Source of the DNA: an uncultured Brachyspira sp.
GTDB taxonomy: Bacteria; Spirochaetota; Brachyspiria; Brachyspirales; Brachyspiraceae
Length of the DNA: 64,000 bases
NCBI RefSeq assembly: GCF_944388875.1
Contig: NZ_CALXKQ010000001.1
Span: forward strand, 186,001 to 250,000
Reading direction: 5' to 3'
Each line of letters starts with the position of its first letter. Positions within the stretch are counted from its first letter, which is position 1. The notes under the pieces were generated by a model. That model was not told the DNA's origin, made no database searches, and was given only the letters and a program-made list of their open reading frames with translations. A program made the position numbers and the translations under genes. This document shows positions 3,209-14,674 of this stretch, in pieces.

Positions 3209-3937
3209 TTATTGAAAAATATTCATTTTAATAATTATAATCATAATTATTATACTAAATATTGGTGAAAATATAGATATAAATAATAATTTTTTGTTTA
3301 ATTTGGATATGTTATCATCAGTATTTTTATTTATATCATCAATTTTTATATTAATATTATTATTAAGTTCTTCTATTTTAGCGTTTAATAAATTATCTGA
3401 ATTAGAAAGATTATCCCTAAAAATATTTAATTCTTCTTTTAAGGAATTATTAACAGTATCAGTTTTTCTGTTAGCTTCTTCTGCTTTTGTATTAATATTA
3501 TTATTAAGTTCTTCTATTTTAGCGTTTAATAAATTATCTGAATTAGAAAGATTATCCCTAAAAATATTTAATTCTTCTTTTAAGGAATTATTAACAGTAT
3601 CAATTTTTCTGTTAGCTTCTTCTACTTTTGTATTAATATTATTATTAAGTTCTTTTATTTTAGCGTTTAATAAATTATTAAAATCATTTTTTAGATCAAG
3701 TATATTTTTTTCTATATCATTAAATTTTAAATTATTTTTATTGAAATTATCTTTAGTAGATTCTGAATGTTTATTAAAAGTATCCCAAAAATCTCCTGCT
3801 TTATCAATAACAATATCTTTCATTTCTCTTATCTTATCAGAATCATCTCTTACAGAATCTATATACGATAATTTACTTTGAAATTTTTTCATATTATTAA
3901 GTAGGTCTTCGATTTTCTGCAATAGTTTATCTTCCAT
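3209..3937 (-). CDS. Coiled-coil protein with 47-residue tandem repeats and a C-terminal membrane anchor
   Basis: No family is recognised for this 242-residue protein. Residues 1-85 are charged and helical. Residues 88-134 and 135-181 are near-identical 47-residue units beginning LLNAKI and containing NNSLKEELNIFRDN; a partial third unit runs to about residue 205. Residues 217-238 form one hydrophobic segment with a short tail, so it is probably a tail-anchored protein with the coil in the cytoplasm. It is the last gene of the GTPase operon, 28 bases after the preceding gene. The even heptad pattern suggests a tether or spacer that could change length by repeat gain or loss. Confidence 0.6.
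   Translation of the reverse strand: MEDKLLQKIEDLLNNMKKFQSKLSYIDSVRDDSDKIREMKDIVIDKAGDFWDTFNKHSESTKDNFNKNNLKFNDIEKNILDLKNDFNNLLNAKIKELNNNINTKVEEANRKIDTVNNSLKEELNIFRDNLSNSDNLLNAKIEELNNNINTKAEEANRKTDTVNNSLKEELNIFRDNLSNSDNLLNAKIEELNNNINIKIDDINKNTDDNISKLNKKLLFISIFSPIFSIIIMIIIIKMNIFQ
3395..3676 (-). repeat. 141-bp tandem repeat inside the coiled-coil gene
   Basis: Two consecutive 141-base units encode the 47-residue repeats with only a few substitutions; a partial third copy continues to about 3320. The unit length is a multiple of three, so copy-number change would preserve the reading frame. Confidence 0.8.
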
Positions 3938-11713: not shown

Positions 11714-12967
11714 TTATGGTATTTTAGGAAATTTATATATTGTATATCCGCCTATATTCGTTAACTCAATAGCGTTATTATCTATAAGATATTTCATTTC
11801 ATTATTATTTCTATTATCGTCCCAATTTTCTCTGACAATATTATCTCTTATAACATATAAGATATCAGGGCTTGAAGAAATATTTAAATTTATATCTTTG
11901 AAATATATTTTAAAAATATCTTCAAATTGTTTATTAACTATTCCTGAAAAATTATCATATATATCTATTTTTTTACCTTTAGAGTCATTTTTTATAAAAT
12001 TAGCAACATCGTATAATACTTTCTCGCTTCTAGGCTCCTGAAATAATTTTATATATCTATAAAATTCTAAAAAAACAGCAAAAGAGTTTAAAATAAAGAA
12101 AATCAATATTAATATCTTTACATTATTTTTCAAACTATTTTCATTAATTTTAAAGAATATTATAAAAGTTATAAAAGAAATTGAAAAAGCAGAATATAGA
12201 TAATGGAATGTACCAGATTTTGACCTAAAAATAATAAAAGATAATATCGTTGCTGGTATAAATATTAAAAAAATAAAAAATATTTCTTTTAAAGTTTTAT
12301 CTGTACTTTCTAATGATTTATTATTTTTTAGAAAAAATAATATAGAATAAAAAAACATAAATGCAGACAATAGTAAAGAAAAAAATAAAAATATCAAACT
12401 ATAAATATAAATACCATCTTTAGTCCAAAAATATAATATAGAATTAAATCTAGTACCAATTAAACTAGACATTTCATTCGTAGGAAAAATAATCAATGCA
12501 TATATTTGAGGAAATGGTATTTTATTTAAATTATCTCTTATATTTATAGCTAGATTTATATTATTAAATCCGCTTTGAAACTCGGATATCAAATACGGCA
12601 AATATAGTAAAAAAGATATAAAAACTCCTAAAGTCCAATATAATAAATAATTTTTTGTATTCTTAAAACGTATAATAAGATAAATTATAATAGTAGGAAT
12701 CATAGAGAAAAAAACTACAAAATGCCCTTGAGCCATAATAGCAAGTATAGGAAATATAAAAATCGATGATGCTTTCTTTATTTTATCACTGCTGCTATCT
12801 ATATATTCAAATAAAAGTATAAAAAATAAAAAACTAAATATCAAAGTAATATTAGGATTCCAAAAATCAGTAATAGACATAATAACATACGGATTGCATA
12901 ATACTAATGCCGTCATTATAGAAGCTATAAAAATACCAAATTTTTTATAGAGCCAAATTAAAAACAA
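11714..12967 (-). CDS. N-terminally truncated copy of a polytopic membrane protein (probable pseudogene)
   Basis: The 417 residues match residues from about 118 onward of the neighbouring protein at 13020-14633: shared LYKKF/IYKRF, DFWNPN, MAQGH, IYLIIR, LPYLISE and IFPTNEM. The first ~117 residues, including the first membrane helices and the periplasmic loop, are missing. The frame has only a TTG start at 12967 and a stop three codons further up. Homology ends right where a promoter-like dispersed repeat begins (12970-13015). About eight to ten membrane helices remain. The intact relative looks like a lipid-linked-sugar glycosyltransferase (GT-C-like) membrane protein. Without the N-terminus this copy is probably inactive. 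Confidence 0.55.
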   Translation of the reverse strand: MFLIWLYKKFGIFIASIMTALVLCNPYVIMSITDFWNPNITLIFSFLFFILLFEYIDSSSDKIKKASSIFIFPILAIMAQGHFVVFFSMIPTIIIYLIIRFKNTKNYLLYWTLGVFISFLLYLPYLISEFQSGFNNINLAINIRDNLNKIPFPQIYALIIFPTNEMSSLIGTRFNSILYFWTKDGIYIYSLIFLFFSLLLSAFMFFYSILFFLKNNKSLESTDKTLKEIFFIFLIFIPATILSFIIFRSKSGTFHYLYSAFSISFITFIIFFKINENSLKNNVKILILIFFILNSFAVFLEFYRYIKLFQEPRSEKVLYDVANFIKNDSKGKKIDIYDNFSGIVNKQFEDIFKIYFKDINLNISSSPDILYVIRDNIVRENWDDNRNNNEMKYLIDNNAIELTNIGGYTIYKFPKIP

Positions 12968-13019: not shown

Positions 13020-14633
13020 TTATCTTTCTATATATCTGTATACCTTTAATTTATCATCTCCAGCAATAAATTCGGCATCATTAGGCAAATTATTTAATAT
13101 ATCATCATAAGATTTTGATTTACCAGTCGTTTTTAGCCTAACATTTTCAACTTCATAATAAATAAAATATACTAATTTTGAATTATCATCTCTATTCCAA
13201 GCTAAATTTGAAAAATAAGCTGATTTCATATTATCAAAATAATGTTCATCATAAGGAATTATTTTAAAAGCTCTGCCTTGAGCATCTTTGGACACTGCAG
13301 TTAATATATTTCTAAATTTCTTCTCTGTATATGGAGCTTCAAATAAATTATAATATCTTGTCAAATGTAAAAATCCCATATTTATACTATTTAGTGTAAG
13401 AAATATTATAGAAATCATAAGCAGCTTATTCTTATTTTTTAATAATTCATTAAATAATATTATTATAGTTATAAAAGAAAAAGCAAATACTCCATATAAA
13501 TATCTAAAAGTACCAGGAGCTGATTTAAATATAAAGAATGTAAAACAAGTAGCTGGTATAAATAATAAATAAAATATAAATCCCTCTTTTTCTATAATAC
13601 TAGCAGAAGTTTTTAATTCAATTTTTCTTGATTTAAACAAAAAGATTATTGAATATATAAAGGCTACTAAAGAAATAATAGCAGTAATAGCTAAAAATAT
13701 CATACCTACAAAGAAAGTATTTTCATTGAACCAAAAATAATTAGTAGGTGTAGAATTAGTACCATACAAAACAGACATTTCATTAGTTGGAAAAATAAGT
13801 ATAGAATAAACTTGAGGAAGTCCTTTAAAACTAGATGTGCTTTGCATATTAATCATTAAATTAGTATTAAGAAAACCATTTTTTATTTCTGAAACTAAGT
13901 ATGGTAAATAGGTTAAAAAAGCTATAAATACACCAAGCAAATGAGCTTTAATATATTTTAATGTTCTTTTATATCTGATTATAAGATAAAGAATTGTTGT
14001 AGGAACTATAGAAAAAAATACGGCAATATGTCCCTGAGCCATTAAGGCTTCTATTGGAAAAATAAGCATTGCAGATATAAAAGCTAATTTTTCATTATTA
14101 TTTGATACATATTCAGAAAATATTATTAAAAGTATAAAAGAAAGCATCAACGGTACATTAGGATTCCAAAAATCATTTGAGGAAAAGATAACATACCCAT
14201 TAGTAAGTATTAATGCTGATAAAACAGCACATAAGTACAGAGAAAATCTTTTATATATCCAAAACAAAAATAAAATAAGTATTATAGCACAAAGTATTAT
14301 ATAAATAATTCTAGCTCCTGCAATAGAAGCTCCGCTTAAACTATAGCATAGTAAATAAAGTATATAATAAAATCCGCCCGGTATCCTAGCATAAGAGGTA
14401 TTATCAGTAACATACTCTGGATTCATAAGTCTATTACCAACAACTGGTATAGTATTTGTTTCATAATACTGCTTAATATCATATAGATGATATATAGGAT
14501 CTATATAAATAGCAGTTCTATTAAAAGCATAAATATGTATAAATAATGCTGATATCACTGATATAAAAATTATTATAATATATATATATATATATCTGTC
14601 TGTCTGTCTGTCTTCATATAACTTATTATCCAT
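13020..14633 (-). CDS. Polytopic membrane protein, probable GT-C-type glycosyltransferase, with repeats in its first codons
   Basis: The 537-residue protein has about eleven predicted membrane helices. A large first loop contains YIDPIYHLYD near residue 42, an acidic motif of the kind GT-C transferases use to bind a polyprenyl-phosphate sugar. A C-terminal soluble region of about 90 residues follows. The early codons are built from tandem DNA repeats, (GACA)n then (TA)n, which encode DRQTDRYIYIYI. No clear ribosome binding site precedes the ATG. A truncated paralogue follows on the same strand. The family call rests on topology and the early acidic motif; the substrate and the polysaccharide it would modify are unknown. 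Repeat slippage could switch it on and off. Confidence 0.6.
   Translation of the reverse strand: MDNKLYEDRQTDRYIYIYIIIIFISVISALFIHIYAFNRTAIYIDPIYHLYDIKQYYETNTIPVVGNRLMNPEYVTDNTSYARIPGGFYYILYLLCYSLSGASIAGARIIYIILCAIILILFLFWIYKRFSLYLCAVLSALILTNGYVIFSSNDFWNPNVPLMLSFILLIIFSEYVSNNNEKLAFISAMLIFPIEALMAQGHIAVFFSIVPTTILYLIIRYKRTLKYIKAHLLGVFIAFLTYLPYLVSEIKNGFLNTNLMINMQSTSSFKGLPQVYSILIFPTNEMSVLYGTNSTPTNYFWFNENTFFVGMIFLAITAIISLVAFIYSIIFLFKSRKIELKTSASIIEKEGFIFYLLFIPATCFTFFIFKSAPGTFRYLYGVFAFSFITIIILFNELLKNKNKLLMISIIFLTLNSINMGFLHLTRYYNLFEAPYTEKKFRNILTAVSKDAQGRAFKIIPYDEHYFDNMKSAYFSNLAWNRDDNSKLVYFIYYEVENVRLKTTGKSKSYDDILNNLPNDAEFIAGDDKLKVYRYIER
14579..14613. repeat. Adjacent (TA)8.5 and (TCTG)4.75 simple repeats in the 5' coding region
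   Basis: Positions 14579-14595 are an uninterrupted TA run and 14595-14613 an uninterrupted TCTG tetranucleotide run, both inside the first ~19 codons of the membrane protein gene. Gain or loss of one tetranucleotide unit would shift the reading frame. Confidence 0.85.
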
Positions 14634-14674
14634 ATGTGAAGTGTATCTTAAAATTTAATAAATATCAAGTATTA

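Follow-up and report, generated by a model that had tools for sequence, protein, structure and literature searches.

Repeat tract at the start of a membrane glycosyltransferase gene

The analysed stretch of 64,000 nucleotides of Brachyspira DNA (hereafter the window) contains a short, pure tetranucleotide repeat within the first codons of a gene coding for a membrane glycosyltransferase-like protein. In silico, this locus appears to behave as a tetranucleotide phase-variation locus, and it lies in a genus that apparently uses such repeats widely. On balance, we lean towards counting the tract, short as it is, among the simple-sequence-repeat (SSR) contingency loci spread across the genus Brachyspira; it would switch this glycosyltransferase gene. 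The genus-wide repertoire, and above all an arrangement in which the repeat is located in a separate leader ORF, is a more interesting result than the gene in the window. The features of the locus are the following:

13020..14633, minus strand: GT-C-type membrane glycosyltransferase gene, 537 codons from ATG#1 (ORF, sub-threshold PMT_2 match, AlphaFold/Foldseek, dN/dS)
14595..14613, minus strand: (GACA)4.75 simple sequence repeat, TCTG on the plus strand (direct reading, TRF, beyond chance)
14578..14595, minus strand: adjoining AT/TA dinucleotide run, also coding (direct reading; not in the G010 orthologue)
14631..14633, minus strand: ATG#1, open through the assembled tract, with a weak ribosome site
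14615..14617, minus strand: ATG#2, abutting the tract in a different frame, open at 5 units and closed (14 aa) at the assembled 4
14640..14668, minus strand: promoter-like site TTGATA-17-TACACT, weak; such matches in the region occur in near chance number
11714..12967, minus strand: truncated paralogue of 417 aa with a TTG start, without the N-terminal ~110 residues and the tract (ORF and alignment)

On the coding strand the gene begins with ATG GAT AAT AAG TTA TAT GAA GAC AGA CAG ACA GAC AGA TAT ATA TAT ATA TAT ATT ATA. The (TCTG)4.75 tract reported by the first-pass annotation was confirmed at 14595–14613 as 100% pure by both TRF and a direct scan. The adjoining dinucleotide run described there is present as well (14578–14595), but a recount gave 9.0 copies instead of 8.5. 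The GACA tract runs directly into the AT tract and both together form codons 8–19 of the gene, whose ORF is open throughout, so that their placement within the first ~19 codons of an intact 537-residue gene was described correctly. Among pure period-4 tracts of at least 15 nt, the GACA tract is the only one in the window, and for 64 kb an order-3 Markov null predicts 0.017 tracts of at least 19 nt, and none whose unit contains G or C; the tract is thus non-random and far beyond chance. An origin by chance slippage in AT-rich sequence was rejected on the basis of this null model and the lack of triplet-type units among the G/C-containing tracts of the sampled stretches (see below). At 3344–3678, the window also contains a 141-bp unit repeated 2.4 times with 97% identity within a coiled-coil-like ORF (3209–3937, minus strand); this unit corresponds to 47 codons, and in-frame length variation is therefore possible there.

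Start codons and reading frames

The annotated start (ATG#1) is one of two candidate starts, and it is uncertain which of them is used. The ribosome site amounts to −1.7 kcal/mol at ATG#1 and −3.1 kcal/mol at ATG#2, compared to −4 to −7 kcal/mol for other genes in the window, which bears out the earlier remark that the gene has no strong ribosome site. When slippage was simulated in silico, the gene was open from ATG#1 with 4 GACA units (537 aa), open from ATG#2 with 5 units (533 aa), and closed from both with 3 or 6 units, whereas 7 and 8 units behaved as 4 and 5, respectively. Changes in TA copy number shifted the frame likewise. Whether alternative tract lengths abolish the frame, a question raised by the first-pass annotation, is thus answered affirmatively in silico, where each step of one unit shifts it. 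In the cell, slipped-strand mispairing would add or remove one GACA (or one TA) and so shift the frame; with two ATGs in different frames upstream of the tract, 4 units would be read via ATG#1 and 5 units via ATG#2, and alleles of 3 or 6 units would be closed. A start downstream of the tract was considered and rejected, as the ATG of the orthologues is replaced by TAT/ATA here and the sole option is a GTG at about codon 31, inside the first helix.

If ATG#2 were the main start, the assembled allele would be OFF from this codon, and ON solely via ATG#1 with its poor ribosome site. This leads to an alternative explanation, according to which the tract and the short ATG#2 ORF are a regulatory leader and expression occurs only with 5 (or 2, or 8) units. 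ATG#2 indeed abuts the tract, like the ATG at nearly all AAAC, AAATCAG, and GACA loci of the genus, its better ribosome site has the same GGATAAT as an AAAC locus (L095), and ATG#1 would lie just a few bases past the transcript start of the weak promoter. However, in two species the frame of ATG#1 is open and that of ATG#2 is closed, and the tract in the window is not followed by the conserved leader sequence described below. We regard this explanation as improbable.

Predicted gene product

The gene product is GT-C-like and is not named a member of the PMT family, because its match to Pfam PMT_2 (22.2 bits) is below the gathering score of 26.1; PMT_2 was matched at E < 0.01 by 6 of 12 family members. 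For the AlphaFold model (mean pLDDT 69.8), the best PDB matches found by Foldseek were ArnT, ALG9, PMT4, and subunits of OST, with E values of 7.6e-5 and 2.4e-4 for the ArnT structures and low TM-scores of 0.37–0.45 for the PDB matches. A profile search of the PDB with the gene family gave no match. The protein shares with ArnT, PMT, and ALG9, which provide its best structure matches, the multi-helix membrane fold and conserved acidic residues in the first loop, but differs from them by these low TM-scores and the lack of a Pfam match above the cutoff. Two aspartates in the first extracytoplasmic loop, D45 and D52, are invariant in 12 homologues and may have a catalytic role. Comparison with eight orthologues yielded dN/dS ratios of 0.12–0.15, which were low in orthologues with and in those without the tract, and the gene is therefore under purifying selection. 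Based on this selection and the GT-C fold matches of the model, the earlier designation as a membrane glycosyltransferase can be retained in the form glycosyltransferase-like. The probable function of the enzyme is the transfer of a sugar or a related group, on the outer side of the inner membrane, to an envelope glycan such as lipooligosaccharide. An envelope glycan as putative target is suggested by the fold and by the lipooligosaccharide envelope of the genus, and donor and acceptor are likewise putative.

Paralogue and orthologues

Homologues were analysed in 26 Brachyspira genomes, consisting of the window's own genome (G000; 3.11 Mb, 48 contigs) and 25 congeners, each of which contained 2–8 protein matches. 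A scan of GTDB r220 retrieved four relatives only, none of which was seen to carry the tract, and a search of viral contigs and plasmids found no other copies of the gene. The neighbour at 11714–12967 could be aligned only from query residue ~112–120 on; its N-terminal part including the tract region is absent, in agreement with its initial description as truncated and tractless.

The nearest orthologue (G010, 93% identity) has a (GACA)2.75 tract, as opposed to 4.75 units in the window, and no TA run; the length difference is 21 nt and the gene is in frame from ATG#1. The tract is absent from most orthologues in the 12 orthologue genomes examined, and in most species the protein begins with MKK right after the tract position, often with a good ribosome site and without any repeat. 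In the orthologue of G001 (71–72% identical), the start reads ATGTTAAA(CAACT)9.8 behind a strong ribosome site, and this tract is in frame (ATG-TTAAA-(CAACT)9.8). Given the GACA repeat in the window and the (CAACT)9.8 repeat in G001, this position of the gene has, to judge from these sequences, acquired repeats with different units on at least two separate occasions. Two orthologues show disruptions, namely an internal frameshift at about residue 281 (L012/L027, G015 C13) and a single TAG (L007, G018 C36); both stem from MAGs and may be assembly errors.

Repeats at the start are also present in more distant family members, with ATGCGTA(ACCGC)14.4 in an open frame in G013, and ATG(AAAC)34.75 in G010, where the ATG frame is closed and a 470-codon GT-C frame is open beyond the tract. 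In G005 and G009, ATG(AAAC)31 and ATG(AAAC)41, respectively, are located in a small ORF preceding the GT-C gene.

These comparisons bear on the alternative that the gene is expressed constitutively and the tract is just a short residual or neutral repeat, in an N-terminal extension that tolerates length steps that keep the frame, without any biologically relevant switching. Such a repeat would be compatible with the mere 4.75 units, the low dN/dS with or without the tract, the many tractless orthologues, and the difference of 21 nt to G010, a multiple of three. A kept frame in one pair is, however, a one-in-three event, and both the separate pentanucleotide with 9.8 copies at the same place in an orthologue and the many long non-triplet tracts kept at gene starts across the genus argue against neutrality. 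This explanation appears unlikely, albeit less so than the regulatory leader discussed above.

Repeats at glycan genes across the genus

Simple sequence repeats were found in many of the 26 genomes. The ATGAAACAAACAAACAAAC pattern occurred 16 times in 10 genomes (reversed control, 0), (AAAC)5 was present in 17 genomes, and GACA tracts of at least 4 units in three. The heptanucleotide AAATCAG was detected in five genomes and, in most loci read, directly follows an ATG that precedes GT2 genes. A search for one trinucleotide pattern behind ATG gave no match. Copy numbers of GACA elsewhere are at least 19 (G000 C22/C37), 8.5 (G010), and 21.75 (G002). The end of contig C22 and the start of contig C37 of G000 both terminate in GACA tracts of ~19 copies and probably represent a single locus, upstream of a GT8 gene, with 19 or more copies; in the window's own genome, the assembly thus seems to be interrupted by long repeats. 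Across the genus, long repeats with units of 4, 5, and 7 bases and up to 44 copies are located at glycan-gene starts or shortly before them.

A survey of 862 kb (462 kb of G000 and 400 kb of G010, sampled as stretches rather than whole genomes) revealed 17 tracts of period 4–9, a density that is biased by stretches already known to hold tracts (the window, C4, C37, and, by position, one G010 stretch). Apart from one AT-only hexamer, all tracts had G or C in the unit, and all 16 of these had a period of 4, 5, or 7 and none a multiple of three. Thirteen of the 16 were located inside an ORF or at most ~205 nt upstream of its start. The adjoining genes are mostly glycan genes, and among them are GT2, GT8, GT61, MBOAT, a polysaccharide pyruvyltransferase, a CapD-like epimerase, and a methyltransferase.

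The proposal of the first-pass annotation that the window gene is phase-variable by slippage is supported in part, by the non-random tract in the right place, the frame switch in silico, the repeats in relatives, and the SSR loci at other glycan genes. The short tract, with 4.75 units compared to 8–44 at other loci of the genus, its absence from most of the 12 orthologue genomes, and the weak ribosome site of the annotated start speak against it. Switching at 4–5 units would probably be slow, and as a contingency locus the tract is probably best interpreted as a switch that is either nascent or has shrunk.

Conserved leader ORFs

In many cases the repeat is not located in the glycan gene itself, but in a leader ORF preceding it. 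The relevant loci are:

L085–L101 and L185–L207 (15 of 26 genomes), G000 C4:16489–16648 and C4 at ~21.2 kb: leader-ORF loci
L154:14439–16508 and L208–L221 (alignment A2): commonest leader-controlled gene
L076:1498–1640 (G010) and L164:1–180 (G000 C37): (ACAG)n leader and hairpin ahead of a GT8 gene

The AAAC tracts are followed by a common sequence of ~100 nt (TCAAGTTTTACTCTTCTAAACAAATTTATCTTTGTTGCAAAAAATATT...TATGGAGNARTTTATGAAAAATAA), which in one frame encodes SSFTLLNKFIFVAKNILINLNTIFVFYGVIYEK and whose stop overlaps the start of the following gene (ATGAAAAATAA). With a leader query of 33 residues, 23 copies were found in 15 of the 26 genomes. According to a script, the start ATG shares the frame of the leader at about half of the scorable loci (10 open, 11 closed, including L093, which was scored as closed yet reads open on direct reading). 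Such a mixture of open and closed frames is the pattern that would be expected of a switch. Differences among the leaders are spread evenly over the codon positions (0.38/0.34/0.37, in an alignment including some outliers). A role of the leader peptide as a conserved protein was thus rejected, as this even distribution gives no sign of peptide constraint; it suggests that frame and overlap are more important than the peptide. In translational coupling, the repeat length of the leader would decide ribosome delivery to the next gene.

The commonest leader-controlled gene (13 members aligned) has an N-terminal part of ~160 residues with 44–61% mean pairwise column identity and a remainder with ~20%, and single members match DUF2142 or GT87 in the divergent part. 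The structure model of this family is of low confidence past the N-terminal domain. This constant-plus-variable architecture could perhaps have arisen from domains being swapped behind a single switch.

The leader of the GT8 locus in G010, read in its current frame, crosses a strong terminator-like hairpin (−29 kcal/mol, with TTTTTG behind it) and ends at the start codon of the GT8 gene. Because the leader frame reads through the hairpin to this codon, the arrangement suggests repeat-controlled attenuation, in which repeat length would decide whether ribosomes cross the intrinsic-terminator hairpin. At L146:1900–2110 (G000 C1, ~22 kb), a (GACAA)6.8 leader ORF is followed by a hairpin and T-run, recognized by eye, and a Methyltransf_24 methyltransferase gene.

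Brachyspira may thus possess a large repertoire of repeat-switched envelope-glycan genes, a view for and against which we see the case as evenly balanced. Many of these genes would be controlled via a leader ORF composed of ATG-(AAAC)n or ATG-(AAATCAG)n and a SSFTLLNKFIFVAKNILINL...YEK-like sequence, with its stop overlapping the next ATG, by translational coupling or, at GT8, by attenuation.

Comparison with known systems

In the lic loci of Haemophilus influenzae, alternative upstream ATGs in different frames are known, and in lex2A/lex2B the repeat is located in a small ORF upstream of the transferase gene. The Brachyspira AAAC leaders resemble lex2A/lex2B in that an ORF with the repeat lies ahead of the transferase gene and overlaps it, but they differ by a conserved leader that is reused at many unrelated glycan genes and by the overlap of its stop with the next start; the gene in the window does not belong to this type. 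With the H. influenzae loci lic1A, lic2A, lex2A, lgtC, and the GACA locus “pgtl” (PMC2651432), it shares non-triplet units in the 5′ coding end of a surface-glycan gene, where copy number sets the frame. The GACA unit itself is used at this putative glycosyltransferase locus of H. influenzae, with 16 down to 5 copies tabulated (PMC2651432). Phase-variable H. influenzae loci of the tetranucleotide class usually have more copies than the 4.75 in the window, and the window locus further differs from them in belonging to another phylum, coding for a GT-C enzyme, and having a tract known from one assembled length. Unlike H. influenzae, Brachyspira also has units of 5 and 7 bases and separate leader ORFs.

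In the open-licence literature on phase variation, repeats, and lipooligosaccharide of Brachyspira, no description of SSR phase variation was found, and the searched passages of the B. hyodysenteriae and B. pilosicoli genome papers make no mention of SSR switching. Repeat switching at surface-sugar genes of Brachyspira is thus apparently unreported so far.

Implications for Brachyspira

The genus Brachyspira includes the causative agents of swine dysentery and of intestinal spirochaetosis. A real repertoire of this kind would mean that individual cells, and individual cultures, differ in their surface glycan states, which would bear on lipooligosaccharide serotyping and vaccine design. “Truncated” genes in draft genomes might then just be in an OFF frame, and the repeats would interrupt assemblies. 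With the leader-ORF arrangement, repeat length would be coupled to expression in a distinct manner.
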